64,000 bases of DNA. Source: Lacrimispora amygdalina (GTDB lineage Bacteria; Bacillota; Clostridia; Lachnospirales; Lachnospiraceae). This document shows, one piece after another, positions 6,033-27,847 of this stretch. The position numbers were made by a program, and so were the translations under genes. The DNA is taken from the NCBI RefSeq assembly GCF_003432035.1, contig NZ_QOHO01000073.1:1-64000 (forward strand). The letters are read 5' to 3'. The stretch's first letter is position 1, and the number at the start of each line of letters is the position of its first letter. The notes beneath the pieces were generated by a model. It was not told where the DNA came from, did not search any database, and worked only from the letters and a program-made list of their open reading frames with translations.

Positions 6033-6039
6033 AACTATA

Positions 6040-6214: not shown

Positions 6215-6229
6215 TATGATATTATCATA
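6215..6229. promoter_or_regulatory. 7-1-7 palindrome
   Basis: TATGATATTATCATA is a perfect inverted repeat with one central base, the geometry of Fur/PerR-family operators, although the bases only partly match the Fur consensus. It is not near an obvious start codon. Confidence 0.3.
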
Positions 6230-6387
6230 AACATGAAAGATCCCACAAAGTGGTCAGAGCGCTTTCTACATATGTTTTCTAAGTCGGCAGAGTTGCTCTG
6301 AAAAGCTTCTTTGCCGGCTCAACCTAAAAATGTGATTAAAAATCGTCAATATTGCATTCCTGAATCCAGGGATTTCATATATATATT

Positions 6388-6434
6388 CTAAAGAGGAAGC
6401 TTCAGCCAGTAATGGTCTGCAGCTTCCTCTTTAT
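6388..6434 (-). terminator. Terminator of the sugar-acid operon
   Basis: Stem AAAGAGGAAGCT (6390-6401) with AGCTTCCTCTTT (6421-6432), immediately after the SDR stop codon on the minus strand. Confidence 0.75.
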
Positions 6435-6446
6435 TGTGGACTAACT

Positions 6447-7211
6447 CTATTTTACAAGATATCCGCCATCTACCGGAATGGCAGTTCCGTTTAAATAATC
6501 GGAAGCGGAGGATGCAAGGAATAGTACCGGTCCCTTTAAATCTTCCGGTGTTCCCCATCTGCCGGCTGGTATTCTTACGGTGCATTCATCTTTTCTGGAC
6601 TGAGTCATATTTGCACACATCTCAGTATCCATATAGCCGGGGCAGATGCAGTTGATGTTGATTCCCCGTCCTGCACAGTCTACGGCAAGACTCTTGGTCA
6701 GCTGGGAAACTGCGCCTTTTGTGGCGGTATAAGCAGGTACGGTGGTGCCACCAAACCATGTAACCATGGAACCGATGGTGATGATCTTACCTCCTGTTGA
6801 CTGGGCAAGCATAACCTTTAACGCTTTCTGAATCATGATAAATACGTGGTTTAAATTAATATCCACGACCAGATCCCACTCTTCCATGGGGAATTCCTCA
6901 GGCAGATGTCTTCTTTGAATTCCGGCTGCCGGAATCAGCACATCAAGCTTTCCTTCTAAAAGATCCATGGACTCATCAAAGATCCGGTTTATATCCTCGC
7001 GGTCTGCCAGATTCCCCGCTACGCCGTAGGCTTCATAGCCTTTATCCTGATATTCCTTTACCACCTGTTTCAGTTTTTCTTCCTGTACATCAATCAGCAC
7101 TACTTTACAGCCGGCTTCCAAAAGACCCTCTGCCATTCCTCTGGATAACCCCTGAGCACCTCCAGTTACAATACAATGCTTTCCTGTTACATCAAATTTG
7201 TTTGATATCAT
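6447..7211 (-). CDS. SDR-family oxidoreductase (KduD-like)
   Basis: 254 aa classical short-chain dehydrogenase. The Rossmann motif CIVTGGAQGLSRG is near residues 13-25, the catalytic Ser is in IGSMVTW, the YxxxK pair in AYTATKG, and the C-terminal PVDGGYL is typical of the 2-deoxy-D-gluconate/gluconate 3-dehydrogenase group. It probably interconverts a keto sugar acid with NAD(H). It is the last gene of the operon, 15 nt downstream of the Zn-dehydrogenase. Exact substrate unknown. Confidence 0.88.
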   Translation of the reverse strand: MISNKFDVTGKHCIVTGGAQGLSRGMAEGLLEAGCKVVLIDVQEEKLKQVVKEYQDKGYEAYGVAGNLADREDINRIFDESMDLLEGKLDVLIPAAGIQRRHLPEEFPMEEWDLVVDINLNHVFIMIQKALKVMLAQSTGGKIITIGSMVTWFGGTTVPAYTATKGAVSQLTKSLAVDCAGRGININCICPGYMDTEMCANMTQSRKDECTVRIPAGRWGTPEDLKGPVLFLASSASDYLNGTAIPVDGGYLVK

Positions 7212-7226
7212 GTCTGTTCCTCCCTG

Positions 7227-8249
7227 CTAATCAAATAATATTACGGTCTTTTTTACTGCCGGATCCGGATTTTCCATATTCTTAAATACCTTTTCAATTT
7301 CACTGAATTTTACAAAGGTTGTGGCAAGACCTTCTAACTGGTATTTTCCCTCTGCCATGTTCTTTGCTACAGGCTGAAACTGATAGGCGCTCATTCTGCT
7401 TCCTATAATATCAAGTTCCCGCTTGTTAATATCCGCCTGACTGAAACTTTCCGGTTTATCTGAAAATCCCATGGGGATCACTCTGCCTGCGTTGCATACG
7501 ATTCCCGGCTGTAAGAGGAGCGTGAGACTTCCCGGGAAGCAGGCGGAATCAAATGCAGCCGTACAGCCGTGTCCGCCGGTAATCTGAGATATTCTTTCGG
7601 CAATATTTTCTGTTTTGCTGTTAATGGTTTCATCTGCTCCAAAGGATTTTGCCCGTTTTAAAGACTCGTCGTCAATATCACAGCAGACCACCTTTGCGCC
7701 GATCACCTTGCATGCCTGAAGAATAATGGTTCCAATGGTTCCTGTTCCAAGGATAAATACCGTATCATCAGGCTGAATTCTGCCCCGTTTTGTGCAGTGG
7801 GCCCCAATGGCAATTGGCTCGATTAAGGCAGCGTCTTTCCATGGAATGGAATCTTCTATTTTATATACATCATCTTCGGGTGCTGTAAAATATTCTCTCC
7901 ACCCTCCGTCGGTACCGCTTCCTCTCACCAGCACATGCTCGCACACTTCTTCTCTTCCATGGGTGCACTGATAGCATTCGCCGCAGGTGATGATTAAGTC
8001 TACTACTACGTGGTCTCCAACTTTGACATTTGTAACATTTTTACCTGTTTTTGCCACAATTCCGGCATTTTCATGACCAGGCACCAGAGGATAGGTGGAG
8101 CAGGGATTCTCACCTCTGTAGATATGTAAATCGCTGCCGCATACACCGGCTGATTTCATCTGAATTAACACTTCATTATCTTTCGGTTCCGGTATGGGAA
8201 TTTCACGTATCTCATAATGAAACGGACTGGTAATTACACAAGACTTCAT
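7227..8249 (-). CDS. Zinc-dependent alcohol/sugar dehydrogenase (RspB-like)
   Basis: 340 aa MDR-family dehydrogenase. The catalytic zinc site is GVCGSDLHIY with PGHENAG; the structural zinc is held by Cys in ITCGECYQCTHGREEVC; the cofactor loop is ILGTGTIGTI. It follows a ManD/RspA-like dehydratase gene by 32 nt, and such pairs (rspA-rspB, or mannonate/galactonate routes) oxidise sugar acids. An in-frame upstream ATG at 8348 would add 33 unrelated residues inside the previous gene; AGGAGGAAATAACA before 8249 decides the start. Confidence 0.9.
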   Translation of the reverse strand: MKSCVITSPFHYEIREIPIPEPKDNEVLIQMKSAGVCGSDLHIYRGENPCSTYPLVPGHENAGIVAKTGKNVTNVKVGDHVVVDLIITCGECYQCTHGREEVCEHVLVRGSGTDGGWREYFTAPEDDVYKIEDSIPWKDAALIEPIAIGAHCTKRGRIQPDDTVFILGTGTIGTIILQACKVIGAKVVCCDIDDESLKRAKSFGADETINSKTENIAERISQITGGHGCTAAFDSACFPGSLTLLLQPGIVCNAGRVIPMGFSDKPESFSQADINKRELDIIGSRMSAYQFQPVAKNMAEGKYQLEGLATTFVKFSEIEKVFKNMENPDPAVKKTVILFD

Positions 8250-8281
8250 TGTTATTTCCTCCTTGTTTCTTCTACTATTAA

Positions 8282-9529
8282 TTAAGGGGTCTGAAGCGCT
8301 CCATCCCTGCGCCTGGTCTGAGTCCAGGTGACAACGGTACTTTCGCATGGATATTTTGCGGCTTCTTTTTCATTGATATCAACTCCAAGACCTGGCTTGT
8401 CATTTGCATACACATAACCGTCACTAAATTCCGGAAGTCCGGGGAATACCTCTAATAACGCTCCTCTTGGACCTTTTAAATCCTGGATGACAAAATTAGG
8501 CGGTTCGATTCCCGACCACTCCTGTACACCGAAATTCGGTGAGGAAAGGTCTAAATGAATATTGGCTGCATGGGCAATGGGTGACATGTCTCCAGGTCCG
8601 TGCCATGCCGTTCTTACCCCATACTGCTCTGCAAAAATCTGAAGCTTTCTGGCCGGAGTAATGCCACCGATCTGACTTAAATGAACCCGGATAAAGTCAA
8701 TAAGGTGTTCCGCAATAATCTGCTTCCATTCCACAGCATGATTAAACAGTTCTCCCTCTGCAATGGGAATACTTGTCTGCTGCCGCAAATTTCTAAGCCA
8801 GGGAAGCTGTTCAATGGGAACCGGATCCTCAAGGAAAAATAAGTCATAAGGTTCCAGTGCTCTTGCCAGCTTGATGGAATCTACCGGAGCGATCCGTTCA
8901 TGAACATCGTGAACCAGATTCATGTCATATCCGATCCGGTTCCTGATGTTCTCAAAAAGTTTGACCGTATTCTGGATATATTCCCTGGAATCAAGATACA
9001 CACCGCTTAATGCGCCCTTTGGAGCTGTAGACGGAACGGTCCCATAGCTGTCTCCGCCATAACCGCCGCACTGGCACCGGATATTGGTTATACCCATTTC
9101 CTTAAAACGCAGGATATTATCACAGACTTCCTCAGCATCCCTTCCGTCTGCATGGCGGTAAACCGGAATTCCCTCCCTGCATTTTCCGCCAAACAGCTGG
9201 TATACGGGCATGCCTGCCATCTTTCCTTTAATATCCCACAATGCCATATCCACTCCGGAAATCGCATTATTCTCAATTGGCCCGTTTCTCCAATATCCGT
9301 TCTGGTGCATGAGCTGCCAGATATCTTCGATCCGGTCCACCTCTCTGCCTGTGAGAAGGGGCTTTAAATATTCCTCCACTACCGTCTTTACTGCCAGATG
9401 GCGGTAGGCAAATGTCGCACAGCCAAGCCCGTACAGTCCCGGCTGGTTGGTTATCACCTTTACAACCACCAGATTAATTCCTTCCGGTGCCGTAAGTATT
9501 ACCTGAATGTCACTGATTTTTGTATCCAT
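8282..9529 (-). CDS. Mandelate racemase/enolase superfamily dehydratase (ManD/RspA-like)
   Basis: 415 aa. Enolase-superfamily fold with metal ligands in the expected order: Asp in LVHDVHERI, Glu in FFLEDPVP and Glu in IAEGELF. The later TAWHGPGDMSP block matches the D-mannonate dehydratase (ManD/RspA) branch. It would dehydrate a sugar acid to a 2-keto-3-deoxy acid. Some ManD-like proteins have weak or other activities, so the substrate is open. Two adjacent ATGs (9532, 9529); GGGAGG spacing favours 9529, which overlaps the stop of the upstream ATPase gene. Confidence 0.9.
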   Translation of the reverse strand: MDTKISDIQVILTAPEGINLVVVKVITNQPGLYGLGCATFAYRHLAVKTVVEEYLKPLLTGREVDRIEDIWQLMHQNGYWRNGPIENNAISGVDMALWDIKGKMAGMPVYQLFGGKCREGIPVYRHADGRDAEEVCDNILRFKEMGITNIRCQCGGYGGDSYGTVPSTAPKGALSGVYLDSREYIQNTVKLFENIRNRIGYDMNLVHDVHERIAPVDSIKLARALEPYDLFFLEDPVPIEQLPWLRNLRQQTSIPIAEGELFNHAVEWKQIIAEHLIDFIRVHLSQIGGITPARKLQIFAEQYGVRTAWHGPGDMSPIAHAANIHLDLSSPNFGVQEWSGIEPPNFVIQDLKGPRGALLEVFPGLPEFSDGYVYANDKPGLGVDINEKEAAKYPCESTVVTWTQTRRRDGALQTP

Positions 9530-10530
9530 CATGTCCTCCCTGCTTCCATCTCTCTTGCTTTTTCCCTTGATTCTTCATAAAAATGGCAGGCTGCAAAATG
9601 GCCCGGTTCCACTTCTTTTAAATCCGGCTTCTGGGTTTTACAGATATCTCTGCATAAAAAGCACCTGGGTGCAAATCTGCAGCCTTCTCCCGGATTAATA
9701 GGACTTGGCACATCTCCGGTCAGTACAATCCTGCTTGTTTTCTCCTTAAAATTAATTTTGGGAACTGCTGACAGTAAGGCGATGGTATAGGGGTGACGCG
9801 CATTGGCAAATATCTCGTCTGTCTGCGCCATCTCTATGATCTGCCCTAAATACATCACTGCCACTTTCTGGGAGATATGCCTTACCACGCTTAAATCATG
9901 AGAAATAAACAGGAAGGATAAATTCATTTTTTTCTGCAGATCCATCAGAAGATTAATGATTGTGGCCTGAATAGACACATCCAGAGAGGAAACCGGTTCA
10001 TCACAGACGATAAATTCCGGTCCTAAGGATAATGCTCTGGCGATCCCAACCAGCTGACGCTTTCCGCCATCCAGCTCATGAGGATATTTATCCAGTACGT
10101 ATTTTTCCAGTCCGCAAAGCTCAATGATTTCTTCAATCCGCTCCCGCCGTTCATTTCCTGAACAGAGGTTATGGATCCGGTAGGACTCCTCCATTATGCT
10201 TTGTATGGTTTTTTTGGGGTTTAAAGAGGAATAGGGATCCTGGAAAATAATCTGGATTTTCTTTCTGAAATCCATGCTTTCATTGCCCTTGGAGTCCAGA
10301 ACACTGCTTCCCTTATAAAGGACCTCTCCGTCTGTTGCTTTATGAAGCCTCATGATTACATTTCCCACTGTGGATTTTCCGCATCCGGATTCCCCAACCA
10401 GTCCCAGAGTTTCTCCTGGCATGACAGAAAAGCTGATACCGTCAACCGCATGAAGGATTCCTTTGTTTTTTACTTTAAAATGCTTCTTTAAATTCCGGAC
10501 TTCAATGACCGGAAGATTCTGCTTCTCCAT
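9529..10530 (-). CDS. ABC transporter ATP-binding protein, OppF/DppF type
   Basis: 333 aa. Walker A GESGCGKST, Walker B EFIVCDEPVSSLD and the C-terminal oligopeptide/dipeptide transporter extension with Cys residues (GCRFAPRCFLC, CKTQKP) that may bind an Fe-S cluster, as in DppF proteins. The ABC signature is unusual: ELDGGKRQ where LSGGQRQ is canonical. It forms a heterodimer with the OppD-type partner encoded just upstream, whose stop overlaps this start. Part of a peptide/nickel/opine-family importer that is here linked to sugar-acid enzymes. Confidence 0.93.
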   Translation of the reverse strand: MEKQNLPVIEVRNLKKHFKVKNKGILHAVDGISFSVMPGETLGLVGESGCGKSTVGNVIMRLHKATDGEVLYKGSSVLDSKGNESMDFRKKIQIIFQDPYSSLNPKKTIQSIMEESYRIHNLCSGNERRERIEEIIELCGLEKYVLDKYPHELDGGKRQLVGIARALSLGPEFIVCDEPVSSLDVSIQATIINLLMDLQKKMNLSFLFISHDLSVVRHISQKVAVMYLGQIIEMAQTDEIFANARHPYTIALLSAVPKINFKEKTSRIVLTGDVPSPINPGEGCRFAPRCFLCRDICKTQKPDLKEVEPGHFAACHFYEESREKAREMEAGRT

Positions 10531-11498
10531 TAATTTGCTTCCTCCCTTTCAAAGCAGGCCACCAGATGACCCGTACCATATTCCTGCAGCGGCGGCACTT
10601 CCTTCCTGCAGCGGTCTGTACAGGATGTACAGCGGGGATGGAATTTACAGCCGGAAGGCAGTAAACAGGCATTGGCCACATTTCCCGGAATGAAAGCCAG
10701 ACGGTTTCTCGGACCGCTTAAGTTTGGAATGGCACCCAAAAGCCCTTTTGTATACCAATGCCTTGGGTTTGTAAAGACTTCTTCCACAGTGCCATATTCA
10801 ATGATGGTTCCTGCATAAATGACCGCAACCTTCTGGCAAAGCTCCGCAATAATCCCCAGGTTATGGGTGATCATTAACAGCGAGCTGGAACGCTTCCTCT
10901 GAAGCTCCTTCATCAGTTCTAAAATCTGTGCCTGAATGGTCACATCAAGAGCTGTGGTAGGCTCATCGGCAATTAAAAGCTCCGGATTACAGGCAAGAGC
11001 TGCTGCAATTCCTACTCTCTGTCTCATACCGCCGGAAAACTGATGAGGAAAATCATCTAAGCGGTATTTTGCAATTCCTACCAGTTCTAAAAGCTCCTGT
11101 GCTCTTTTTGCAGCCTCCTTTTTACTTAGCTTTTCATGCTTTCTGATTACCATGGAGATCTGTTCTCCAACGGTAAATAATGGATTTAAGGAGCTTAGAG
11201 GATTCTGGAATATCATGGATATTTTATTTCCTCTCATCTCCTCCAAGCTTTTGTTATTCATATCCAGAACCGATTTTCCATCAAAAAGTATGGAACCACC
11301 GGTTATGTTGCCCACTTCTCTGGGAAGCAGCTTTAAGGCGGATAAGGCAATGGTTGTCTTACCGGCTCCAGTCTCTCCCACAAGCCCCAGCGCCTCTCCC
11401 CGCTCAATGGTTAAATTAATTCCATTCAGCGCCTTTGCGGTCGCCCGCCCGGTTTTATATTCTACATGCAAATCTTTTATTTCCAACAATGGTGCCAT
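10530..11498 (-). CDS. ABC transporter ATP-binding protein, OppD/DppD type
   Basis: 322 aa. Walker A GETGAGKTT, canonical signature HQFSGGMRQRVG, Walker B LLIADEPTTALD, H-loop MITHNLG, and a C-terminal CKFHPRCTSCTDRC extension. Pairs with the downstream OppF-type ATPase to energise the two permeases. A longer frame from 11582 would overlap the upstream permease; GGAGGCGACAAC in front of 11498 sets the start. Confidence 0.93.
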   Translation of the reverse strand: MAPLLEIKDLHVEYKTGRATAKALNGINLTIERGEALGLVGETGAGKTTIALSALKLLPREVGNITGGSILFDGKSVLDMNNKSLEEMRGNKISMIFQNPLSSLNPLFTVGEQISMVIRKHEKLSKKEAAKRAQELLELVGIAKYRLDDFPHQFSGGMRQRVGIAAALACNPELLIADEPTTALDVTIQAQILELMKELQRKRSSSLLMITHNLGIIAELCQKVAVIYAGTIIEYGTVEEVFTNPRHWYTKGLLGAIPNLSGPRNRLAFIPGNVANACLLPSGCKFHPRCTSCTDRCRKEVPPLQEYGTGHLVACFEREEAN

Positions 11499-17547: not shown

Positions 17548-17574
17548 ACTCTTTTCCTGCAAGGACATATTATA
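17548..17574 (+). promoter_or_regulatory. Sigma-K-like promoter of the glycosylation operon
   Basis: AC at 17548-17549, a 16-nt spacer and CATATTATA at 17566-17574 fit the known sigma-K pattern (AC, 16-17 nt, CATAnnnTA). No comparably good sigma-A promoter is seen in this gap. The start codon of the first gene follows at 17620 after AGAGGGGG. Sigma-K acts in the mother cell late in sporulation. Confidence 0.5.
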
Positions 17575-17619
17575 TATAAGAAATACGTATTTCTAATCAG
17601 ACGCAGAGGGGGCGTTTTT

Positions 17620-17904
17620 ATGGCTAACTATAAACCGATTGTCAAAACAATTACACTGGCTTCCGCTGATTCAGGTATTCTTCTTCCTGTTAAGCTGTCA
17701 ACAACAAGCTGGGGACTGCTTTTAACCAGAGGTACCGCAGTCTTTAGCAATACCATCTTACGAAGCGGCGCAGTTGCTGTCTGGGAGAGTACAAATCCCA
17801 CAACTGCTACTCCAGACGGTTTGACATTTACAGATGCAAATGCTGTTTACGGTATTACCACCAGAGCTGGTGTACAGCTGAGATTTAAATTTTACGCTCA
17901 ATAA
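17620..17904 (+). CDS. Small Ser/Thr-rich protein, candidate spore-surface subunit
   Basis: 94 aa, no signal peptide and no membrane helix. The sequence is predicted beta-rich and rich in Ser and Thr (for example KTITLASADSG, LSTTSWG, STNPTTATPDG), which makes it a plausible O-glycosylation acceptor. I do not recognise a family. First gene behind the sigma-K-like promoter and separated from the next gene by hairpins, so it may be the most highly expressed product of the operon. The ATG is chosen because AGAGGGGGCG precedes it; the open frame extends upstream to 17497 through the terminator. Confidence 0.7.
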   Translation: MANYKPIVKTITLASADSGILLPVKLSTTSWGLLLTRGTAVFSNTILRSGAVAVWESTNPTTATPDGLTFTDANAVYGITTRAGVQLRFKFYAQ

Positions 17905-17951
17905 ACACTCCGGGGGTGTTCATTTTATTGGACACCTCCTAATTAGGAGGC
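17890..17951 (+). promoter_or_regulatory. Nested hairpins that can hide a ribosome-binding site
   Basis: Between the first and second genes lie an AACAC/GTGTT hairpin (about 17903-17920), a competing GGTGT/ACACC pairing, and the perfect palindrome CCTCCTAATTAGGAGG (17935-17950). In the last, the Shine-Dalgarno AGGAGG of the next gene pairs with CCTCCT around an AATT loop. The first hairpin could protect or terminate the upstream message; the last could limit translation of the second gene. Confidence 0.45.
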
Positions 17952-17957
17952 GACGAT

Positions 17958-18248
17958 ATGTCATCTAAATTATGTTTCACCGGCTGCCAGCTGATCTGCT
18001 CCGAAATCGTAACTGCAGATGTGACTTTGTCCTGTGATTCATCTCTGGTTATCACAGGAACGGTGTACCGCCCAAACGGAATCCCCTTACCAAATGCAGC
18101 AGTAGAGGTCCGCGTCCTGGATGCTTCTGATCCCTCCCAGTTTATCCGGATCGGTGTGACCTTCTCTCTTTCTGACGGTACCTACGGATTTACTTTGCCC
18201 AAAATCAAGGGCAGACAATATCAGCTGCTTGCCTACTCACCTTTATAG
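17958..18248 (+). CDS. Single-domain carboxypeptidase-regulatory-like protein 1
   Basis: 96 aa. Residues about 30-96 carry the transthyretin-like/CarboxypepD_reg pattern: ITGTVYRPNGIPLPNAAVEV, then LSDGTYGFTLP and YQLLAYSPL. No signal peptide. It is one of four paralogous small proteins of this fold in the operon, alongside 20241, 20564 and 20875. Such beta-sandwich modules usually act as structural or adhesive units. Its ribosome site AGGAGG lies inside a palindrome. Confidence 0.75.
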   Translation: MSSKLCFTGCQLICSEIVTADVTLSCDSSLVITGTVYRPNGIPLPNAAVEVRVLDASDPSQFIRIGVTFSLSDGTYGFTLPKIKGRQYQLLAYSPL

Positions 18249-18284
18249 GTTAAAGCTTAGCCAAACCTTCTTGTGGAGGAAACC

Positions 18285-20015
18285 ATGAAAAAAGTAAAAA
18301 CTTCTGACGGATACCAGGTGTGCCGTATTAAAAAAGAGGGAACATATGAGTATCTTGCAGACCATATACATTATGAAGACGAAATCCATAAGCTTATGGA
18401 TACACTGGAGGGAATCAGATTTGATTCCCTGATACTTCTGTTCGGCATTGATACAGGAGCTTATTTAGATCAATTAAAAAAATGTATTTGTGCCAGAAAC
18501 ATGGTTATTATTTTCGAACCGAACCGTTCGGTTTTTAAGCAGTTTCCTGCATATACAGGCGATAACATCCACCTGGTCTTTTATAACGAGGAACTGATAA
18601 AACAGATATTTGATGAAACTATTACCTATAAAAATATCAATAATATTTATTTTCATGCATTTGGAAACTACGAAAGGATTTACAAAAAAGAATACGACCG
18701 GCTGATTGAACACCTGGACTGGACGATTATGAATGCCGCTTCCCAGGTCCATCTGGCAAAACGGTTTAAAAATATATTTATTAAAAATATGATTGCAAAC
18801 ATGAAAATCATAGAAGAGACCACTCCCATTCACCGGTATATAAATACCAACACGGATGTCCCCGCAATTATAGTATCCGGCGGATCATCACTGGATCAGA
18901 ATATAAAGGATATGTTGAAGTACAAAGACAAACTGAAGGATTACTTTATTATTACAGGAAGCAGAACCGTGAACGCTCTCGTGAAAAACGGGATCATGCC
19001 TGATATGATTGTATCCGTTGACCCGGTTGATGCCAATTATGAGATGATGAAAGACCATTTGGATTTAAACGTGCCACTGGCCTTTTATGAATACAGCAAC
19101 CGTTATCTTATGAAGGATTATAAGGGAGAAAAAATATTTATCTCTCTCCTGTTTTCCCATACCATTAAGGGGATGGGGCACTTAAAAGCGGTGTACTGCG
19201 GAGGATCGGTATCACACGCATGCATAGACATTGCAAATATGCTTGGCTGCTCTCCTATTCTCCTGGCCGGACAGGATTTAGCACACACAAATAATAAGCA
19301 TCACGCAGACAGCGCACTGTTTCCTTATGACAGCAGTATCAAGTATGACACTCAGATATTGATTAAAGATATCCACGGCAAACCCACGGCAACTTCCATT
19401 ACTCTGGATTCCTTCCGCCGAAATCTGGAGTACTATATCAGCCGTTATAAAGACCGGTCCCGCGTCCGTTTTATCAACTGTTCCTATGGAGCTGAGATAA
19501 AAGGAGCCCCTCACCAGGAACTGAATGAATTACTGGAAAACGGTTCTTATGCAGGCAAAAAAAATGCCTGCCTGCCAGTTCATGAGCTGAGGCTGAACCC
19601 AGAGGAGACGATTGGTACCATAATCGAATTCCTCAATGAATATCTGTTACGAACAAGTGAAGGACTGGAATTGTGTCAAATCATTATTTCTGAAAATAAG
19701 ACAAAATCTCTTGTGGAAGTTGAGGAAGATGATATTGACCTTCAGAGAATCCTGTATATTCTGCAGATTGTAAACAATTTTGAGAACCACCCCCTGAGCC
19801 GCTACTTAGGAGGATATATTACTGAATTTCTCTATGAAATGAAAGAAAGAAACGAACAAATGTCAGCAAAGGATTATGACAAACTGACCTCCGATCTCCA
19901 ATATCAGGCGGCTTTTTTCATGGAGTATTTTGAACGTCTGTACAAAATACTTACAGAGGTAAGAGATACCATTCGTTCAACGGTATCAGAATTCTATCCA
20001 TCGCATATAGTTTAG
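18285..20015 (+). CDS. Maf/MptE-like (DUF115) glycosyltransferase
   Basis: 576 aa. The central block IIVSGGSSLDQNI, FIITGSRTVNALVKNGI and PDMIVSVDPVDANYEMM, with GGSVSHACIDIANMLGC and LLAGQDLAHT later, matches the motility-associated-factor (Maf, DUF115/MptE-like) family. Known Maf proteins transfer pseudaminic or legionaminic acid from its CMP form to Ser/Thr of flagellin in the cytoplasm. No flagellin is encoded here; instead small beta-domain proteins flank it, so these are the likely acceptors (inference). A GTG at 18273 is in frame, but GTGGAGG spacing selects ATG 18285. Confidence 0.88.
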   Translation: MKKVKTSDGYQVCRIKKEGTYEYLADHIHYEDEIHKLMDTLEGIRFDSLILLFGIDTGAYLDQLKKCICARNMVIIFEPNRSVFKQFPAYTGDNIHLVFYNEELIKQIFDETITYKNINNIYFHAFGNYERIYKKEYDRLIEHLDWTIMNAASQVHLAKRFKNIFIKNMIANMKIIEETTPIHRYINTNTDVPAIIVSGGSSLDQNIKDMLKYKDKLKDYFIITGSRTVNALVKNGIMPDMIVSVDPVDANYEMMKDHLDLNVPLAFYEYSNRYLMKDYKGEKIFISLLFSHTIKGMGHLKAVYCGGSVSHACIDIANMLGCSPILLAGQDLAHTNNKHHADSALFPYDSSIKYDTQILIKDIHGKPTATSITLDSFRRNLEYYISRYKDRSRVRFINCSYGAEIKGAPHQELNELLENGSYAGKKNACLPVHELRLNPEETIGTIIEFLNEYLLRTSEGLELCQIIISENKTKSLVEVEEDDIDLQRILYILQIVNNFENHPLSRYLGGYITEFLYEMKERNEQMSAKDYDKLTSDLQYQAAFFMEYFERLYKILTEVRDTIRSTVSEFYPSHIV

Positions 20016-20045
20016 TAAATCCAATGGGAATTTGAGGAATTGAAA

Positions 20046-20210
20046 ATGGACGGCGAAAATAAATTCGAAGCAATCAAGAGCAACTACAAGGAAATGAAAG
20101 TGTCCAAAATAATCGTAAACGGAAAAGAACAGGCTGGGAATATTATAAGCGCTGAGGATACAAAGGACACCCAGCAATTAAATGTGACTATTTATACCCA
20201 GAACGATTAA
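20046..20210 (+). CDS. Small hypothetical protein in the glycosylation operon
   Basis: 54 aa, charged: it opens MDGENKFEAIKSNYKEMKVS and ends NVTIYTQND. TTTGAGGAATTGAAA precedes the ATG, giving a weak ribosome site. It lies between the Maf gene and the second small-domain protein, on the same strand and without terminators on either side, so it is probably translated as part of the operon. No family recognised. Confidence 0.55.
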   Translation: MDGENKFEAIKSNYKEMKVSKIIVNGKEQAGNIISAEDTKDTQQLNVTIYTQND

Positions 20211-20240
20211 GGGAAAAAGGAAAGGGGCGTTACTGAAACC

Positions 20241-20567
20241 ATGAACTGTAATAAGAAAGCCTCCTTTACCATTAGCGGTTCCAAGCTTCTGCCCTGCAGC
20301 AAAAAACATTTTAATTTTCATCTTGGACCAATGAATTATCAAATTATAAAGGGGACTGTTTACCGCCCTGATCACACCCCCTGCAGCGGGGCTGCCGTTC
20401 AGATTACACAAGTGGATATGGTAACTCACGAAACAACGCCTCTTGGCTATGTAATTACAGATAAGGCAGGGCGCTATGTATTTTCACTAAAGGCACTGCC
20501 CGATATGAAATATGAGCTTTCGGTCTTCGCCCCCTTAATTACCTGCAAGAAGGAGGATTGTTTATGA
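20241..20567 (+). CDS. Single-domain carboxypeptidase-regulatory-like protein 2
   Basis: 108 aa. After about 35 N-terminal residues containing Cys (MNCNKKASF, LLPCSKK) comes a transthyretin-like domain: IIKGTVYRPDHTPCSGAAVQI, GYVITDKAGRYVFSL and YELSVFAPL. No signal peptide. Its stop codon overlaps the start of the next gene (ATGA), showing translational coupling among these paralogues. Confidence 0.75.
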   Translation: MNCNKKASFTISGSKLLPCSKKHFNFHLGPMNYQIIKGTVYRPDHTPCSGAAVQITQVDMVTHETTPLGYVITDKAGRYVFSLKALPDMKYELSVFAPLITCKKEDCL

Positions 20568-20860
20568 GCAGCTATGCGGAACTTATAATCGGACCAGAAG
20601 ACTTTAATAACCAGAATATAGCCCAGGCTGCCATCACTCTGGAATCTTCTTTCGAGATTCTGCTCACCGGCACTGTTTTTAATTCCCGCCGTGAAGCTGT
20701 GGAGGGAGCCGTCGTCATAATTACAGCATCCTCCCCCTGGGGAGAAAAAGACCTTGGTTATGTCATAACCAATCAGTTTGGAGAGTTTGCCATTGTAGCA
20801 GAAAAAGATTCTGAGATCGATTACCGGTTCGATATCTATGAACCGGTTCTTACCAGTTAG
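20564..20860 (+). CDS. Single-domain carboxypeptidase-regulatory-like protein 3
   Basis: 98 aa. Same fold as its neighbours: LLTGTVFNSRREAVEGAVVI, GYVITNQFGEFAIVA and YRFDIYEPVL. It starts inside the previous gene's stop codon after AAGGAGGATTGTTT. No export signal. Confidence 0.75.
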   Translation: MSSYAELIIGPEDFNNQNIAQAAITLESSFEILLTGTVFNSRREAVEGAVVIITASSPWGEKDLGYVITNQFGEFAIVAEKDSEIDYRFDIYEPVLTS

Positions 20861-20874
20861 GTTCAGGTAAAAAC

Positions 20875-21123
20875 ATGGCACATGCAATCATAAAAGGAAT
20901 GGTCAGCTACAGGAACTGCGGCCCTGTAGGAGGAGCTGTCATTATTCTGGAACGAATAGACAGCGTATTTAACGAAGAATTGAACGAAGAGCATTTAAAA
21001 AACGTTTATCTGGATTATACCCAGTCAAACAGATGCGGTGAATTCTGTTTTCCAGTCTCTGACACTACCGCAACTTATCGAATAAGAGTTTTTGATAATC
21101 ATCATGAAGGGGGCAGATCATGA
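20875..21123 (+). CDS. Single-domain carboxypeptidase-regulatory-like protein 4
   Basis: 82 aa, the most divergent of the four paralogues: IIKGMVSYRNCGPVGGAVII, then a charged insert (NEELNEEHLKNVY) before RCGEFCFPVS and YRIRVFDN. No signal peptide. Its stop overlaps the start of legB (ATGA overlap), linking the structural genes to the sugar-nucleotide genes in one transcript. Confidence 0.72.
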   Translation: MAHAIIKGMVSYRNCGPVGGAVIILERIDSVFNEELNEEHLKNVYLDYTQSNRCGEFCFPVSDTTATYRIRVFDNHHEGGRS

Positions 21124-22100
21124 AAAAGGTACTGGTCACAGGAGCTGACGGCTTTATCGGCAGCCATCTGACAGAGGAACTTATCAGGCGCGGATATCAG
21201 GTGAGAGCATTTGTCTATTATAACTCTTTTGGTACCTTTGGCTGGCTTGATACTCTTCCTGAACATATAAAGAACGAAATCGAAATACAAAGCGGAGACA
21301 TCAGAGACCCAAATGGGGTAAGAACTGCTGTCGCGGGGGTAGATTCCATCTTTCACTTGGCAGCGCTGATTGCCATACCCTACAGTTATGTATCTCCCGA
21401 TTCTTATGTTGATACCAATGTGAAAGGAACTTTAAATATCCTTCAGGCTGCAAGAGCCTTAGAAACAGGCAAAGTATTAATTACCTCCACTTCAGAAGTC
21501 TACGGCAGTGCCGACTACGTTCCCATTGATGAATCCCATCCGTTTAAAGCCCAGTCCCCTTATTCTGCCACGAAAATAGGCGCGGACCGCCTGGCAGAAT
21601 CATTTTACAGGAGTTTTTCTCTTCCTGTTGCGATTGTCCGGCCGTTTAATACCTATGGTCCAAGGCAGTCAGCAAGGGCAGTTATTCCCACAATAATCAG
21701 TCAGCTTCTGGCGGGAAAGGAAGACATCCATCTGGGAAGTCTTACCCCGACCAGAGATTTTAATTATGTGAAAGACACCGTCAATGGCTTTATTGAAATC
21801 GAAGCGTCTGAACATACCGCAGGCGAGGAGATCAATATTGCCAGCCAAACGGAAATTTCTATCGGCGAACTTGCTTTAGAACTGATTAAACAAATTAATC
21901 CAAAAGCTGAAATCATTTGCGAAAACCAGAGACTGCGGCCGGAAAAAAGCGAAGTGACCAGACTTCTGGGATCAAATGAAAAGCTGAAAGCCCTGACTTC
22001 CTGGAAACAGCAATATACGTTATCACAGGGCCTTAAAGAAACCATTCTCTGGATGGAAAACAATTTGGACCGCTACCGGACAGACCGGTATAATATTTGA
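21120..22100 (+). CDS. legB: NDP-sugar 4,6-dehydratase, legionaminic acid pathway
   Basis: 326 aa extended SDR. NAD-binding VTGADGFIGSHL, dehydratase-type STSEVYGS, YxxxK in SPYSATKIGAD, and RPFNTYGPRQSARAVIP, typical of LegB. It converts GDP-GlcNAc (or the UDP form) to the 4-keto-6-deoxy sugar, the first committed step to legionaminic acid. First of seven closely packed sugar genes whose order (B, C, E, H, I, G, F functions) covers the whole route. Confidence 0.9.
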   Translation: MKKVLVTGADGFIGSHLTEELIRRGYQVRAFVYYNSFGTFGWLDTLPEHIKNEIEIQSGDIRDPNGVRTAVAGVDSIFHLAALIAIPYSYVSPDSYVDTNVKGTLNILQAARALETGKVLITSTSEVYGSADYVPIDESHPFKAQSPYSATKIGADRLAESFYRSFSLPVAIVRPFNTYGPRQSARAVIPTIISQLLAGKEDIHLGSLTPTRDFNYVKDTVNGFIEIEASEHTAGEEINIASQTEISIGELALELIKQINPKAEIICENQRLRPEKSEVTRLLGSNEKLKALTSWKQQYTLSQGLKETILWMENNLDRYRTDRYNI

Positions 22101-22122
22101 TGAAAACGGCAGGAGGCGCCCC

Positions 22123-23274
22123 ATGATTCCCCTATCTGTACCAGTTATAAAAGGCAATGAAAAAAAATATGCAGACGAGGCAATTTCAAACGGCTGGGTC
22201 TCTGCTTCGGGCAGTTATGTGACCAGATTTGAAAATGAAATGGCTGATTATTTAAAGGTGGAAAAAACGGCTGCAGTTCAAAGCGGCACGGCTGCTCTCC
22301 ACCTGTCTTTGCTTCTTTCCGGTGTAAAACCAGGTGAGGAAGTGATCGTTCCTGCCCTGACTTTTATTGCAGCGGTGAATCCAGTGAAATATCTGGGTGC
22401 AGAACCTGTTTTCATGGATTGTGACGATTCCCTGAATATTGACTGCGAAAAACTGGAAGATTTTTTAAAAAAGGAATGTACGAAAACCACTTTGGGCCTT
22501 AGAAATAACAAATCCAAACGTATCATCAGGGCAATTACAGCCGTTCATATCTTTGGTAATATGGCAGATATGGAAACTCTTGTCCGGCTGGCTGATGAGT
22601 ATGGCTTAAAACTGATTGAAGATGCTACGGAAGCGCTTGGAACGAGATATAAAGATGGGATATTTCAGGGGAAATTTGCGGGTACCATGGGTGATTTCGG
22701 AGCTTATTCTTTTAACGGCAATAAAATCATCACAACCGGCGGCGGCGGAATGGTAACTGCAAAAAATGCTGCAAATGTGAAAAAATGCGCCTATCTGGCT
22801 GCCCAGGCAAAGGATGATCCTCTTAACTATGTCCACAATCACATTGGTTATAATTACCGGATGACCAATGTGCAGGCTGCTCTGGGAGTGGGGCAGTTAG
22901 AATGTCTGGAAGATTATATCCGCATCAAGATACAAAATTATAATTATTACAGGGAAGGGCTGAAAACAATTCAGGACGCCGCCGTACTTATGCCCTTTAA
23001 CGAAAAAGCCAGGAATAATCACTGGTTCTACTCTCTTCTTTTAAGAAACAAAACCTTAAAAAGAGATTCTCTTATCAGACAGCTGAAAGAAGCAGGAATT
23101 GAGACCAGACCCATCTGGAAACTGAACCACACCCAGACCATGTATCAGAACTGCCAGACCTATTTTGTAGAAAAAGCGCCCTTCTATCAAAGCCGCATTA
23201 TAAACCTGCCCTGCAGCGTCAACTTAACGGAAGCAGACATGGACTTTGTGATAGAAGCTTTAAAGAAAAGCTGA
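22123..23274 (+). CDS. legC: Aminotransferase, legionaminic acid pathway (LegC family)
   Basis: 383 aa DegT/DnrJ/EryC1-fold PLP enzyme. The PLP-binding Lys is in FGAYSFNGNKIITTGGGGM; LIEDATEALGTRYK and HNHIGYNYRMTNVQAALG are characteristic. It aminates C4 of the keto sugar made by LegB. Ribosome site AGGAGG before the ATG, 22 nt after legB. Confidence 0.9.
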   Translation: MIPLSVPVIKGNEKKYADEAISNGWVSASGSYVTRFENEMADYLKVEKTAAVQSGTAALHLSLLLSGVKPGEEVIVPALTFIAAVNPVKYLGAEPVFMDCDDSLNIDCEKLEDFLKKECTKTTLGLRNNKSKRIIRAITAVHIFGNMADMETLVRLADEYGLKLIEDATEALGTRYKDGIFQGKFAGTMGDFGAYSFNGNKIITTGGGGMVTAKNAANVKKCAYLAAQAKDDPLNYVHNHIGYNYRMTNVQAALGVGQLECLEDYIRIKIQNYNYYREGLKTIQDAAVLMPFNEKARNNHWFYSLLLRNKTLKRDSLIRQLKEAGIETRPIWKLNHTQTMYQNCQTYFVEKAPFYQSRIINLPCSVNLTEADMDFVIEALKKS

Positions 23275-23295
23275 CATATGGAAGGAGGGATTGGC

Positions 23296-24342
23296 ATGGA
23301 CGTGGAAAAATTCTTTGTTGCACCGGACCTTCCAATCAGAGATGCAATCCGGCAGCTGGATGAGACTGCAAAAAAAATACTGATGGTTGTAAATGACGGG
23401 AAGCTGAAAGGAGTCATTACAGACGGAGATATCCGTCGATGGATTCTGCAAAATAAAGATCTGGCAATGCCGGTGCACCTTATTATGAACCAGTCCCCCA
23501 TTGTCATAAAAGAGGGAGAAGTCTCTGAAGCATTGAAAATAATGAGGGAAAAGCAGATTGAAGGTCTTCCCATTGTAAAAGATGACGGCCAGGTCCTTGA
23601 TATTGTGTTCTGGAATGAACTGCAGCCGGATAAAAAACGGATTTTGAGAAAAAAGAAAACTCCTGTAGTGATCATGGCAGGCGGGAAAGGTTCCAGGCTT
23701 TACCCTTATACAAAGATCATACCAAAACCATTAATTCCCATCGGAGATACCCCGATTGTAGAACGGATCATGAATCAGTTGATCTCCTATGGATTCACAG
23801 AGTTCTATTTAACAGTCAATTACAGAAAAGAACTGATTAAAGCATATTTTAACGGTGACCGGCGCTATGACCTTCACTTTGTTGATGAGAAGGAACCGCT
23901 TGGAACAGCAGGCTCCCTGACTCTTGTAAAAGACCAGATCACGGGAAGCTTTTTTGTCAGTAACTGCGATATCCTGGTTGATGTAAATTATGCAAAACTT
24001 CTCCTTTACCATAAAAAAAGCAGGAATCAGATCACGGTTGTGACAGCCATGAAAAATTACGAGATTCCATACGGTGTGATCTCCTTAGATGAAAACGGCT
24101 GTATTCATTCCATGAGCGAGAAACCAAAGTATGAATTTCTGGTCAGCACAGGGCTTTATGTCCTGGAGAAAGATATATTAAAGTATATTCCACTGGATTC
24201 GCCGTTTGATATGCCTGATTTAATCCGCCTGTGCATGAAAAACGGTGAAAAAGTGGGTGCATACCCGGTTATGGACAGCACATGGCTTGATATGGGAGAG
24301 TTCAGTGAAATGAGAAAGATGGCTGAGAGAATGAAACTATGA
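23296..24342 (+). CDS. ptmE: CBS-domain nucleotidyltransferase (PtmE-like)
   Basis: 348 aa. Two N-terminal CBS motifs (about 1-115; GVITDGDIRRWIL, GLPIVKDDGQVLDIVF) precede a nucleotidyltransferase domain with VIMAGGKGSRLYPYTKIIPK and IGDTPIVERIM. In Campylobacter the protein of this design, PtmE, makes GDP-glucosamine for the legionaminic pathway, so this gene supplies the activated starting sugar. Start chosen after GGAGGGATTGGC; an ATG at 23278 lies upstream of that site. Overlaps legH by 4 nt. Confidence 0.87.
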   Translation: MDVEKFFVAPDLPIRDAIRQLDETAKKILMVVNDGKLKGVITDGDIRRWILQNKDLAMPVHLIMNQSPIVIKEGEVSEALKIMREKQIEGLPIVKDDGQVLDIVFWNELQPDKKRILRKKKTPVVIMAGGKGSRLYPYTKIIPKPLIPIGDTPIVERIMNQLISYGFTEFYLTVNYRKELIKAYFNGDRRYDLHFVDEKEPLGTAGSLTLVKDQITGSFFVSNCDILVDVNYAKLLLYHKKSRNQITVVTAMKNYEIPYGVISLDENGCIHSMSEKPKYEFLVSTGLYVLEKDILKYIPLDSPFDMPDLIRLCMKNGEKVGAYPVMDSTWLDMGEFSEMRKMAERMKL

Positions 24343-24986
24343 AAAAAAAGCTGATCCTCCTGGGCGGAGGCGGTCATGCAGAAAGTGTGATTGATACCAT
24401 TCATTCAAAAGAGGAATTTAAGATCATGGGAATCCTTGACAGCAGTAAAAGCCGGGGCATAACCGTCTCCGGCATCATGGTGCTTGGGTCTGATGATCTG
24501 CTGCCCGATATTTACCGCAGAGGAATTAAGTATGCGGCAATAGCAGTCGGAAGCGTTGGTAAGCCCCAGACGAGAATCCGGCTCTTTGAGGAATGTAAAG
24601 CCATTGGCTTTCTTATGCCGTGCATCATTGATAAACGCTCTGCATTATCCGGTGATCTTCATATGGGGGACGGGGTCTTTATCGGAAGAGGAACTTCCAT
24701 AGGTCCGGGAGTCACGCTGGGAGACGGCTGCATTATTAACAGCGGTACGGTTGTGGAACATGACTGTGTTATCGGCAGTTTTGCTCACACAGCCCCTGGC
24801 TGCATTCTCTGCGGAAATGTAAAAATCGGAAATAATGCCCATATCGGCGCAGGAAGCACTGTGATCCAGAACAGAACCATTGGAAGTAATTCCATGATCG
24901 GAGCCGGCAGCCTGGTTCTGTCTGATATTACTTCAAACAAGCTGGCTTACGGAAGTCCGGCAAGGGAGGTAAGTCGTTATGAATAA
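24339..24986 (+). CDS. legH: NeuD/PglD-family sugar N-acetyltransferase
   Basis: 215 aa. N-terminal PglD-type fold opening LILLGGGGHAESVIDTI, then left-handed beta-helix hexapeptide repeats (from about residue 110: GVFIGRGTSIGPGVTLGDG, IGNNAHIGAGSTVI). The catalytic-type His is in VVEHDCVIGSFAHTAPG. It would acetylate the C4 amine of the LegC product. Overlaps both neighbours. Confidence 0.88.
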   Translation: MKKKLILLGGGGHAESVIDTIHSKEEFKIMGILDSSKSRGITVSGIMVLGSDDLLPDIYRRGIKYAAIAVGSVGKPQTRIRLFEECKAIGFLMPCIIDKRSALSGDLHMGDGVFIGRGTSIGPGVTLGDGCIINSGTVVEHDCVIGSFAHTAPGCILCGNVKIGNNAHIGAGSTVIQNRTIGSNSMIGAGSLVLSDITSNKLAYGSPAREVSRYE

Positions 24987-25974
24987 GATTATGATAATAG
25001 CAGAAGCCGGCGTGAATCATAATGGGGATTTGGGCATTGCCAGACAGTTAGTTGATGCTGCATGGGCCGCAGGGGCAGATGCGGTCAAATTCCAGACTTT
25101 CCGCGCAGAACTTCTGGCTGCCCCCAGCGCGAAAAAGGCAAGATATCAGTTTCACAATACAGGAAATAACAATTCCCAATATGAGATGTTAAAGGATCTG
25201 GAACTGTCCTGGAACGATTTTAAGGTCCTCTCTCAGTACTGCGCCTTCCGGGGGATTCAGTTTCTCTCCTCCCCTTTTGATGAAGAAAGCATGGAATATT
25301 TAGACAGCCTGGGGATGGCGATAATTAAGATCCCATCAGGCGAGATTACAAACTACTGCTATTTAAAAAAAGCAGCCGCATTAAAAAAGCCAATTATCCT
25401 GTCCACAGGAATGTCCACTCCGGATGAAATCGGGGAAGCACTGGGTCTTCTTGATACAGGCGGACAGGATATTACTCTTTTGCACTGCTCCAGTATTTAC
25501 CCCACTCCTCCGAAGGATGTTAATTTAAATGCCATGATTACCATGAGAGAATCCTTTCACAAAAAGACAGGATATTCTGACCATACTGCCGGAATCGAGG
25601 TGGCTGTGGCTGCTGCTGCCCTTGGAGCCTGCGTCATTGAAAAGCATATGACTCTTGATAAAACCATGCCGGGGCCGGATCACCGGATGAGCCTGGAGCC
25701 GGATGAATTCAAGAATATGACTGACAGTGTAAGAAATATAGAAAAAGCTATGGGAAACGGGATAAAAGCTCCTGCAGGAGAAGAACTTAAAAACCGGGAT
25801 CACGTAAGAAAGTTTCTGGTAGCTGCAAGAGATATTCAAACAGGGGAACCATTTACCATGGAAAATCTCTGTGCCAAACGCTGCTCTCCCGGAATATCTC
25901 CCATGAAGCTTCCCAAAATACTTGGCACCTGCGCAGACAGAGACTATCGAAAGGATGATATAATAGGGGAATGA
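24979..25974 (+). CDS. legI: N,N'-diacetyllegionaminate synthase
   Basis: 331 aa NeuB-family enzyme. TIM barrel with IAEAGVNHNGDLGIA, AVKFQTF, IIKIPSGEITN, GYSDHTAGIEVA and CVIEKHMTLD, then a C-terminal SAF domain (about 275-331; FLVAARDIQTGEPFT). It condenses phosphoenolpyruvate with the 6-deoxy-diacetamido-mannose to make the nine-carbon acid. The SAF domain and context, with LegB/C/H, favour legionaminate over sialate. Confidence 0.9.
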   Translation: MNKIMIIAEAGVNHNGDLGIARQLVDAAWAAGADAVKFQTFRAELLAAPSAKKARYQFHNTGNNNSQYEMLKDLELSWNDFKVLSQYCAFRGIQFLSSPFDEESMEYLDSLGMAIIKIPSGEITNYCYLKKAAALKKPIILSTGMSTPDEIGEALGLLDTGGQDITLLHCSSIYPTPPKDVNLNAMITMRESFHKKTGYSDHTAGIEVAVAAAALGACVIEKHMTLDKTMPGPDHRMSLEPDEFKNMTDSVRNIEKAMGNGIKAPAGEELKNRDHVRKFLVAARDIQTGEPFTMENLCAKRCSPGISPMKLPKILGTCADRDYRKDDIIGE

Positions 25975-27134
25975 TAAAACTATGTGTGGTAACGGGAAGC
26001 CGGGCGGAATACGGGCTTCTGTTTCCATTAATCCGAAGTATTATGGAAGACCATGACTTGAAACTCCAGCTTCTGGTCACAGGAACTCATCTGGATACCA
26101 GGTTCGGACTTGATTACCGGGAGATGAAACAGGACGGAATTGTAATTGATGAAACTGTGGAAATGAATCTGGCCAGCGATTCTTCCTATGGCATCTGCAG
26201 ATCCATGGGGCTGGAGCTGATCGGTATCTCCGGTGCCTTTGAACGGTTAAAACCGGATATGATACTGCTTCTTGGAGACCGGTATGAGATTTTTACAGCA
26301 GCAAGCGCTGCCGTTATCTGTAAGATCCCAATTGCTCACATCCATGGAGGGGAACTGACCCAGGGGGCCTGCGATGACTGTATGCGTCATGGAATCACAA
26401 AAATGAGTTATCTCCATTTTACAAGCACAGCGGAATACCGAAAACGGGTGATACAGCTTGGCGAATCACCTGACAGAGTTTTTTACGTTGGTGCACTGGG
26501 TATTGAACGGCTTAAAGGACTCACTCTTCTGACAAAAGAGCAGCTGGAAAGGTCTTTAAATATCGCTCTGCCACTTCCTCTTTCCCTGGTCACATACCAC
26601 CCGGCGACTCTGGAGCCTGTCACTGCTGCGGATCAGTTTCAGCCACTTTTAGATGCTCTGGATTCATTTCCAGGGCTATTTACGGTATTTACCGGAAGCA
26701 ACTCCGATACAGGCGGTAATCAGGTCAATGAAATGGCAAGTTCCTATGCAAGGCTGCATCCGGAGCGGGCGGTATACGTTTCTTCTCTAGGCTCCCTTCG
26801 CTATTTAAGCCTGATGAGCTTAAGCAGGCTTGTAATCGGCAACTCTTCCAGCGGAATCCTGGAAGCTCCCGCTTTCCATGTGCCCACAGTGGATATCGGG
26901 AGCCGGCAAAAAGGCAGAATAAAGCCTGATTCTGTCATCAACTGCGAAGCTTCAGCGGAAAGCATTCGTAATGCAATCTCCCAGGCAATAAATCTGGATA
27001 TGAAACACCATGTATCCGATAATCCCTATGATTGTCCGGGCACCAGCAAAAAAATCCTCAGTTGTATAAAAAAGGCGTTTGAAAAGGGAATACATTTAGA
27101 TAAAGAATTCTATGAGATTGATTGGAGACTGTAA
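25971..27134 (+). CDS. legG: Hydrolysing NDP-sugar 2-epimerase (NeuC/LegG family)
   Basis: 387 aa. Epimerase_2 fold with VVTGSRAEYGLLFPLI, LLLGDRYEIFTAA, IPIAHIHGGELTQGA, and VIGNSSSGILEAPAF near the end. It removes the nucleotide and inverts C2 to give 2,4-diacetamido-2,4,6-trideoxymannose, the LegI substrate. The stop overlaps the start of the CMP-transferase gene by one base. Confidence 0.9.
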   Translation: MIKLCVVTGSRAEYGLLFPLIRSIMEDHDLKLQLLVTGTHLDTRFGLDYREMKQDGIVIDETVEMNLASDSSYGICRSMGLELIGISGAFERLKPDMILLLGDRYEIFTAASAAVICKIPIAHIHGGELTQGACDDCMRHGITKMSYLHFTSTAEYRKRVIQLGESPDRVFYVGALGIERLKGLTLLTKEQLERSLNIALPLPLSLVTYHPATLEPVTAADQFQPLLDALDSFPGLFTVFTGSNSDTGGNQVNEMASSYARLHPERAVYVSSLGSLRYLSLMSLSRLVIGNSSSGILEAPAFHVPTVDIGSRQKGRIKPDSVINCEASAESIRNAISQAINLDMKHHVSDNPYDCPGTSKKILSCIKKAFEKGIHLDKEFYEIDWRL

Positions 27135-27847
27135 TGGTTCGAAATAAAAGGTTTCTTGCAATTATACCGGCCAGAAGCGGATCAAAGGGAATCAGGGATA
27201 AAAACATAAAAGAGATGAACGGGAAGCCGTTAATGGGATATACCATAGATGCCTGCAAAATAGCAGGATTTTTCGATGATATCCTTGTGTCTACGGATTC
27301 AAAGATTTATCAGCAGATAGCTATAGGGCTTGGTGCCGCGGCTCCTTTTTTAAGACCGCCCCAACTCTCCGGTGATCAGGCAGCATCCGGTGATGTGATC
27401 CTTCATGCACTTAGTGAAATGAAAAGACTGGGGAAAGAATATGATTATTTTATGCTGCTTCAGCCTACGTCTCCTCTCAGAAACGAAGAACATATTCTGG
27501 AAAGTGTAAAACTACTGTTTGAAAAGGAGGCGGATTCTGTGATCAGTGTCTGTCCTTACGATTGTATGTGTTATCTGTCTGTTACGATCACTGAAACTGG
27601 TGAAATGAAAGCACCCGACTCCTTAAAGAAACAAATAAGGAGGCAGGATGCAATGTCCGGCTGCCGGATCAACGGCGCCATCTATCTTGCATCTGTCCCC
27701 AGTTATTTGAAATATGGTGATTTTTACAGCGGAAAAACTTATCCCTACTTTATGAATCCTGTGGATTCCATCGATATTGACGATACCAGTCAGTTCTATC
27801 TTGCAAAACTCATTCTGCGTGACAGAGCTGATGCAGTTGTAAACTGA
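27134..27847 (+). CDS. legF: CMP-legionaminate cytidylyltransferase (NeuA/LegF family)
   Basis: 237 aa. Opening FLAIIPARSGSKGIRDKNI, MNGKPLMGYTI, VSTDSKIY, and the block LLQPTSPLRNEEHI are the CMP-NeuAc synthetase signature; DSIDIDDTSQF is near the end. It activates the acid with CTP to the donor used by Maf-type transferases. Last gene of the operon; a leftward gene ends 2 nt away and no terminator is seen between them, so readthrough into antisense of pdxK is possible. ATG 27134 follows GGAGACTGTA. Confidence 0.9.
   Translation: MVRNKRFLAIIPARSGSKGIRDKNIKEMNGKPLMGYTIDACKIAGFFDDILVSTDSKIYQQIAIGLGAAAPFLRPPQLSGDQAASGDVILHALSEMKRLGKEYDYFMLLQPTSPLRNEEHILESVKLLFEKEADSVISVCPYDCMCYLSVTITETGEMKAPDSLKKQIRRQDAMSGCRINGAIYLASVPSYLKYGDFYSGKTYPYFMNPVDSIDIDDTSQFYLAKLILRDRADAVVN

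Follow-up and report, generated by a model that had tools for sequence, protein, structure and literature searches.

We analyzed a stretch of 64,000 nucleotides from Lacrimispora amygdalina (the window; contig NZ_QOHO01000073.1 of assembly GCF_003432035.1, positions 1 to 64,000) and propose that a 14-gene operon in it encodes a mother-cell, sigma-K-controlled module that glycosylates proteins of the spore surface with nonulosonic acid, a reading to which we assign a probability of about 0.6. The promoter and the 14 genes lie on the + strand at 17548-27847, exactly from the AC of the -35 element through the legF stop codon, in the order S94, C1, maf, p54, C2, C3, C4, legB, legC, ptmE, legH, legI, legG and legF. 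The proposal builds on the operon itself, the paralogy of its small proteins, a conserved promoter footprint, the co-conservation of transferase and small proteins in other genomes, one swap of the sugar cassette and a distinct clade of Maf proteins. From these features we infer the timing in sporulation, the transfer of sugar to the small proteins, the location on the spore and the structure formed.

In the mechanism that we envisage, one promoter would drive all 14 genes late in sporulation, and the leg genes would supply cytidine monophosphate (CMP)-legionaminic acid within the mother cell. Maf would then transfer legionaminic acid to serine or threonine residues of at least one of the five co-transcribed small proteins, S94 being the first candidate, perhaps with the assistance of p54. 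The decorated proteins would assemble on the exterior of the forespore without secretion, as a layer or a fibre.

Organization of the operon

The genes and a sigma-K-like promoter had been recognized in an initial annotation made from the letters of the window, and re-checking the open reading frames on the + strand recovered all of them with the same coordinates. Consecutive genes overlap at 6 of the 13 junctions and are separated by gaps of 3-53 bases at the other 7, so the description of most genes as overlapping was slightly too strong. The leg genes were assigned with NCBIfam models and their curated cut-offs. The features are as follows.

17548..17574, + strand: sigma-K-type promoter AC-N16-CATATTATA (-35 and -10), at a common place in 21/24 upstream regions
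17579..17594, + strand: 16-bp palindrome AGAAATACGTATTTCT, near-invariant, at the predicted transcription start (15-mer in 23/25 genus genomes)
17620..17904, + strand: S94, Ser/Thr-rich protein of 94 amino acids, fifth small beta-domain paralogue and first candidate acceptor (profile comparison, composition)
17958..18248, + strand: C1, small beta-domain protein, carboxypeptidase-regulatory/transthyretin-like (Pfam below cut-off, structural model)
18285..20015, + strand: maf, MptE-like/Maf-type transferase, ATG at 18285 (PF01973)
20046..20210, + strand: p54, conserved 54-amino-acid protein 3' of maf, possible Maf partner (conservation)
20241..20567, + strand: C2, small beta-domain paralogue (Pfam below cut-off, profile comparison)
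20564..20860, + strand: C3, small beta-domain paralogue (Pfam below cut-off, profile comparison)
20875..21123, + strand: C4, small beta-domain paralogue (profile comparison)
21120..22100, + strand: legB, NAD-dependent 4,6-dehydratase (TIGR04180 above cut-off)
22123..23274, + strand: legC, aminotransferase (TIGR04181 above cut-off)
23278..24342, + strand: ptmE-like sugar-1-phosphate nucleotidyltransferase (general nucleotidyltransferase models only, below cut-off)
24339..24986, + strand: legH, NeuD-type acetyltransferase (TIGR03570 above cut-off)
24979..25974, + strand: legI, NeuB-type nonulosonate synthase (TIGR03569 above cut-off)
25971..27134, + strand: legG, NeuC-type 2-epimerase (TIGR03568 above cut-off)
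27122..27847, + strand: legF, CMP-nonulosonate cytidylyltransferase (PseF model below cut-off, 158.6 of 205.7 bits)

The pathway set for CMP-legionaminic acid is thus complete (legB, C, H, G, I, F and ptmE), with legF and ptmE recognized through related models below cut-off.

Promoter and palindrome

The sigma-K consensus was taken from passages of PMC5749712 and PMC3789822. In 21 of 24 upstream regions, comprising all 15 from the genus and 6 of the 9 from other carriers, a match of the form AC-N16/17-CATANNNTA was located at -70 to -76 relative to the start of S94; 15 of the 24 represent one genus and are therefore not independent. The chance of such a match per 110-base region was 0.15-1.05% in sequences simulated with the same dinucleotide make-up. 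By contrast, the upstream regions of spoIVA in the genus showed the sigma-E type, with ATA at -35 in 11/11 and CATATAGT at -10 in 10/11. According to passages of PMC3789822, sigma-E and sigma-K of C. difficile share a common -10 and differ at -35 (ATA versus AC). Control of the operon by sigma-K, as first annotated, is supported by this footprint, which is conserved over several genera, and by the sigma-E contrast at spoIVA; the claim draws on the conservation of the promoter and not on the strength of the motif. The strength of the motif within the window was dropped as evidence for sigma-K, being near chance (3 matches against a shuffle mean of 1.6, with 20 of 100 shuffles reaching 3), and the first promoter pattern, with a 17-base spacer, had found no match.

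The palindrome AGAAATACGTATTTCT is separated from the -10 by four bases on its 3' side. The 15-mer taken from it occurs at a single place in every maf-bearing genus genome (23) and at none in the two genomes without maf, the reversed control giving 0; a genome-wide regulon element is ruled out for exact copies by this one place per genome. G316 and Galacturonibacter have a different final base, and elsewhere the sequence differs. When the 5' hairpin was folded in 11 regions, 0.6% of shuffles or fewer were as stable in four (two of them near-identical), 5-25% in five, and two regions were unfolded; the Fisher value of 1.6e-6 rests on those four most stable of the 11. The palindrome may be an operator or a 5' hairpin that stabilizes the transcript.

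Five small beta-domain paralogues

C1, C2 and C3 scored 18.9-27.5 bits against the carboxypeptidase-regulatory domain PF13620, under the Pfam cut-off of 32.3, and C4 and S94 did not match PF13620 in Pfam. Among 20 S94 sequences compared with Pfam, one touched Dioxygenase_C (E 0.0099) and no other model was matched. Profile comparison linked S94 to C1 (probability 95.4, P 1.9e-8) and to C2 (88.8, P 2.5e-6), C3 to C1 (98.4, P 6.5e-15) and C4 to C2 (97.3, P 2.7e-11). S94, C1, C2, C3 and C4 are, by these profile matches, five paralogues of one small beta-domain family, and S94 as a separate family is ruled out. The proteins of the earlier description, four single-domain carboxypeptidase-regulatory-like proteins and a Ser/Thr-rich protein, are real; the paralogues number five with S94 included, and in Pfam the domain is seen as a sub-cut-off match in C1, C2 and C3 and not in C4.

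The structure predicted for C1 is a beta domain of five strands and a short helix at the N-terminus (predicted local distance difference test, pLDDT, 81.8). Its comparison with the PDB gave weak matches only, to beta domains of the dioxygenase, Nir2 and transthyretin types, and no match reached E<=0.001; the S94 prediction (pLDDT 53.9) was too poor for a structure search. Ser+Thr make up 23% of S94 and 11-23% of the small paralogues in the window; in the S94 alignment the share is 17-27% in 20 of 20 sequences, and ten columns are at least 85% Ser/Thr. In a hydropathy scan, made without a signal-peptide program, the Kyte-Doolittle mean of 19-residue stretches stayed at or below 1.23 in all the small proteins, and this lack of a strongly hydrophobic stretch fits assembly in the mother cell.

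Two loci carry a further gene among the small proteins: a Big_2 Ig-like-domain protein of 564-565 amino acids lies between C1 and S94 in Romboutsia lituseburensis (L137:7830-9527) and in the L150 locus, which resembles it (L150:9763-11457). The p54 homologue of [Clostridium] fimetarium (L133:11678-12235) has 185 amino acids and an acidic QES-rich repeat.

Conservation within and beyond the genus

Of the 25 genus genomes, 23 carry maf, and from the 22 carriers besides the window genome we compared 20 loci. The full 14-gene order was found in 19 of the 20; in the twentieth, L072, the genes from maf to legG are present and the contig end cuts the locus. The flanking genes differ between these loci, which marks the operon as the conserved unit. 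In one Lacrimispora chromosome (G322:C1:1336245-1337968, L140) maf is broken over three frames and the adjoining C1 lacks a full frame, from either sequencing error or real loss.

When contigs were scanned with an eight-sequence Maf alignment, 25 loci were recovered. The closest named ones belong to a Lacrimispora sp. MAG (89%) and to L. amygdalina (80%), from which the genus was taken as Lacrimispora. Ten came from outside it: Lachnotalea glycerini, Candidatus Galacturonibacter, [Clostridium] fimetarium, a Clostridia MAG (metagenome-assembled genome), a Lachnospiraceae MAG, C. beijerinckii HUN142, R. lituseburensis, a Peptostreptococcaceae MAG, C. gasigenes and R. sedimentorum. A search with the S94 profile matched 5 of 391 genomes of the class; three of these were new, from two other families, and the same Maf adjoins S94 in each. 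Orthologs of the module Maf are rare, occurring in 3 of 299 family genomes at 48% identity or more, with the other 56 matching genomes at 35% or less. S94, C1, maf and C2 were present in all 13 outside carriers; p54 was not detected in L138 and L141, C3 in L137 and L150, and C4 in L137, L142 and L150. As judged from these genomes, the module is more widely conserved than a reading of a single sequence could show.

The sugar genes were more variable. Leg-type genes lie beside the core in 9 of the 13 outside carriers, not always as a full set. In R. lituseburensis the cassette encodes PseC, PseI and PseG, above their cut-offs, instead of Leg enzymes, and that of L150 resembles this pseudaminate type by distant matches only. 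The nearby sugar genes of L138 and L141 are just an unassigned dehydratase and an aminotransferase, and C. beijerinckii has an extra deacetylase-like gene, below cut-off. A constant Maf and small proteins with a variable sugar supply are expected if Maf carries a CMP-nonulosonate either to the small proteins or jointly with them. The glycosylation module supposed in the initial annotation is well supported, with the small proteins as its constant partners, by this co-conservation and the change of sugar cassette.

The Leg cassettes of L151 and L152 also contain FemAB/GNAT-type genes and an extra DegT-type gene, which hints at a further modified sugar.

The Maf clade

The window Maf scored 139.6 bits against PF01973 (cut-off 34.6) and is the sole match to this model in the 5.94-Mb assembly; genes of the nonulosonate pathway adjoin it. 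A search of PDB sequences with the Maf profile gave 0 matches. In a quick tree, one branch separated the 22 module Mafs from 33 others with 100% support in the Shimodaira-Hasegawa-like approximate likelihood ratio test. Six of the 33 come from loci with flagellin within 20 kb (L064, L157-L160 and L162), the rows in which flagellin was checked. Residues 476-550 (window numbering) are 42-57% identical to those of 13 module Mafs from outside the genus and 8-12% identical to the 33 others. A different C-terminus suggests a different acceptor. p54 might act in a GlfM-like role.

Spore context and alternative explanations

SpoIVA was found in 34 of the 35 genomes searched; the one without a match is 67% complete (G399, G694 and G710 stood outside this search). 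In L138 and L141, a SipL/SPOCS gene of 336-340 amino acids (31.5 and 28.6 bits against a cut-off of 23.6) precedes C1 by two genes, with the strand in common; formation of the SpoIVA-SipL complex is described as needed for spore assembly in C. difficile (PMC6436350). The placement of the module on the spore surface, proposed from the window, has indirect support from the conserved promoter, the SPOCS neighbour in two related carriers and the SpoIVA count, although that count includes two genomes without the operon.

Several observations weigh against the spore proposal. Three upstream regions (L137, L138 and L139) have the AC but an A where the -10 has its first C, as seen with a looser pattern only, and among three further loci the match lies at -67 in L152 and at -145 in L151, with a variant at -66, and is absent from L150. 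In the whole genome the strict motif was found at 4 places against 11 for the reversed control, its other three places are not before an evident spore gene, and no regulon is visible; the strict motif was unproductive as a regulon finder. The two Lacrimispora that have SpoIVA and no module imply that sporulation does not need the module, and the SPOCS neighbour is known in just two closely related loci. The module Maf differs from other Mafs over its whole length, most strongly at the C-terminus, with 12-40% identity to the others elsewhere. PF00669, the flagellin model, matched in 35/35 genomes (25 genus genomes and 10 outside, G314 weakly only), and no second Maf was found in the Lacrimispora genomes, so that flagellin could be the target of the sole Maf there.

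These last two points also speak for the main rival, in which Maf and the leg genes decorate flagellin as in Campylobacter and the small proteins are accessory. The initial annotation had noted that no flagellin gene is present; this holds for the operon and not for the genome, which has three PF00669 matches (E about 1e-44 for two of them, 1.6e-8 for the third). PF00669 also matched in the two genus genomes without the module, so the presence or absence of flagellin cannot decide, and its absence was ruled out as an argument. maf adjoins neither flagellin nor flagellar genes. In six genus genomes (G299, G300, G307, G316, which is the closest, G320 and G321) 37-71 kb separate the module from the nearest flagellin on its contig. 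The distance exceeds 0.5 Mb in seven single-contig or near-complete genomes (G302, G305, G306, G315, G317, G318 and G322), and in the remaining ones flagellin and module are on different contigs. Outside the genus the distance is 0.34 and 1.04 Mb in two carriers, with separate contigs in eight, and 5 of these 10 have another Maf 1-20 kb from flagellin. According to passages of PMC13317340, a 2026 paper, Leg+Maf loci outside the flagellar region in C. gasigenes, C. cellulovorans and C. taeniosporum have been read as flagellar, with chemotaxis genes beside the latter two; the C. gasigenes locus is probably the L139-type locus found here. With two Lacrimispora keeping flagellin without the module, and with the differing -10/-35 pattern and Maf C-terminal region, we regard flagellin glycosylation as unlikely.

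The module could also serve the spore with another coat or exosporium protein, encoded elsewhere, as the acceptor, and the five small proteins as chaperones, scaffolds or sugar binders. The plain beta domain predicted for C1 and the uneven Ser/Thr content of the paralogues would suit such a role; the high Ser/Thr share throughout the S94 sequences, the ten Ser/Thr-dominated columns and the first place of the S94 gene in the operon across the genus speak against it, and we consider it less probable than the flagellin explanation. We give very little weight to a vegetative or stationary-phase surface structure (pilus-like or S-layer-like) bearing legionaminic acid. A sigma-70 scan did give a 9-of-12 match overlapping the promoter (TTCACT-17-TATTAT), but the conserved bases are AC and CATA, not TTGACA; the small proteins lack any stretch resembling a signal peptide or a membrane segment, and no sortase or secretion gene was annotated among the 14.

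Relation to known systems

The module resembles the Maf flagellin nonulosonic-acid transferases of Campylobacter and Clostridium in its MptE-like domain and its co-encoded Leg or Pse pathway. It differs from them in its separate clade and C-terminal region, an operon without flagellin, the sigma-K-type promoter and the five beta-domain proteins. With the sps genes of B. subtilis it would share a CMP-legionaminic acid pathway for the spore surface. Passages of PMC7439481 report that legionaminic acid is needed for the B. subtilis spore crust and that neither its transferase nor its final acceptor had yet been identified; unlike sps, the present operon offers a Maf and candidate acceptors together, and none of its 14 genes is annotated as SpsA- or SpsB-like.

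Late mother-cell sigma-K promoters were likewise predicted for the spore appendage genes P29a, P29b and GP85 of C. taeniosporum, where related small repeat proteins stand alongside a glycoprotein (passages of PMC5749712). As described, those appendages differ from our module in having collagen-like and DUF11 proteins, the P29s being of 269 amino acids; the word stem "glycosyl" is absent from the main text of that paper on the appendage genes. According to passages of PMC13317340, a Leg+Maf locus lies apart from the flagellar region in C. taeniosporum, a species known for ribbon-like appendages on its spores. In the literature searched, judged by titles, abstract starts and selected passages, no paper describing the module as a spore system was found. 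If the proposal is true, Maf enzymes would extend from flagella to spores, and at least one published Leg locus read as flagellar, that of C. gasigenes, deserves a second look. A bolder version, a spore-specific sialylation-like system with the first spore-dedicated Maf, co-encoded beta-domain blocks that are glycosylated in the mother cell and build a new layer or appendage in several clostridial families, and exchangeable Leg and Pse sugars, is tentative, and we put it at slightly less than even odds.

Neighbouring genes and sigK in the window genome

An AraC-type regulator gene lies 5' of the operon, and the opposite-strand genes 3' of it we take, from their sequence, to be a pyridoxal kinase and a peptidase.

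No sigK match above the curated cut-off was found in the window genome. Two sigK half-matches lie 7 kb apart and flank an element with a serine recombinase, and sigK appears to be split by a skin-type element, an interruption known from other sporeformers. The element of about 7 kb (L067, G000:C140:58000-72000, 2951-10667) has an unusual cargo: the small and large subunits of a NiFe hydrogenase and a HycI-type maturation protease, together with a cytochrome-b5-domain protein, a melibiase and the large serine recombinase.

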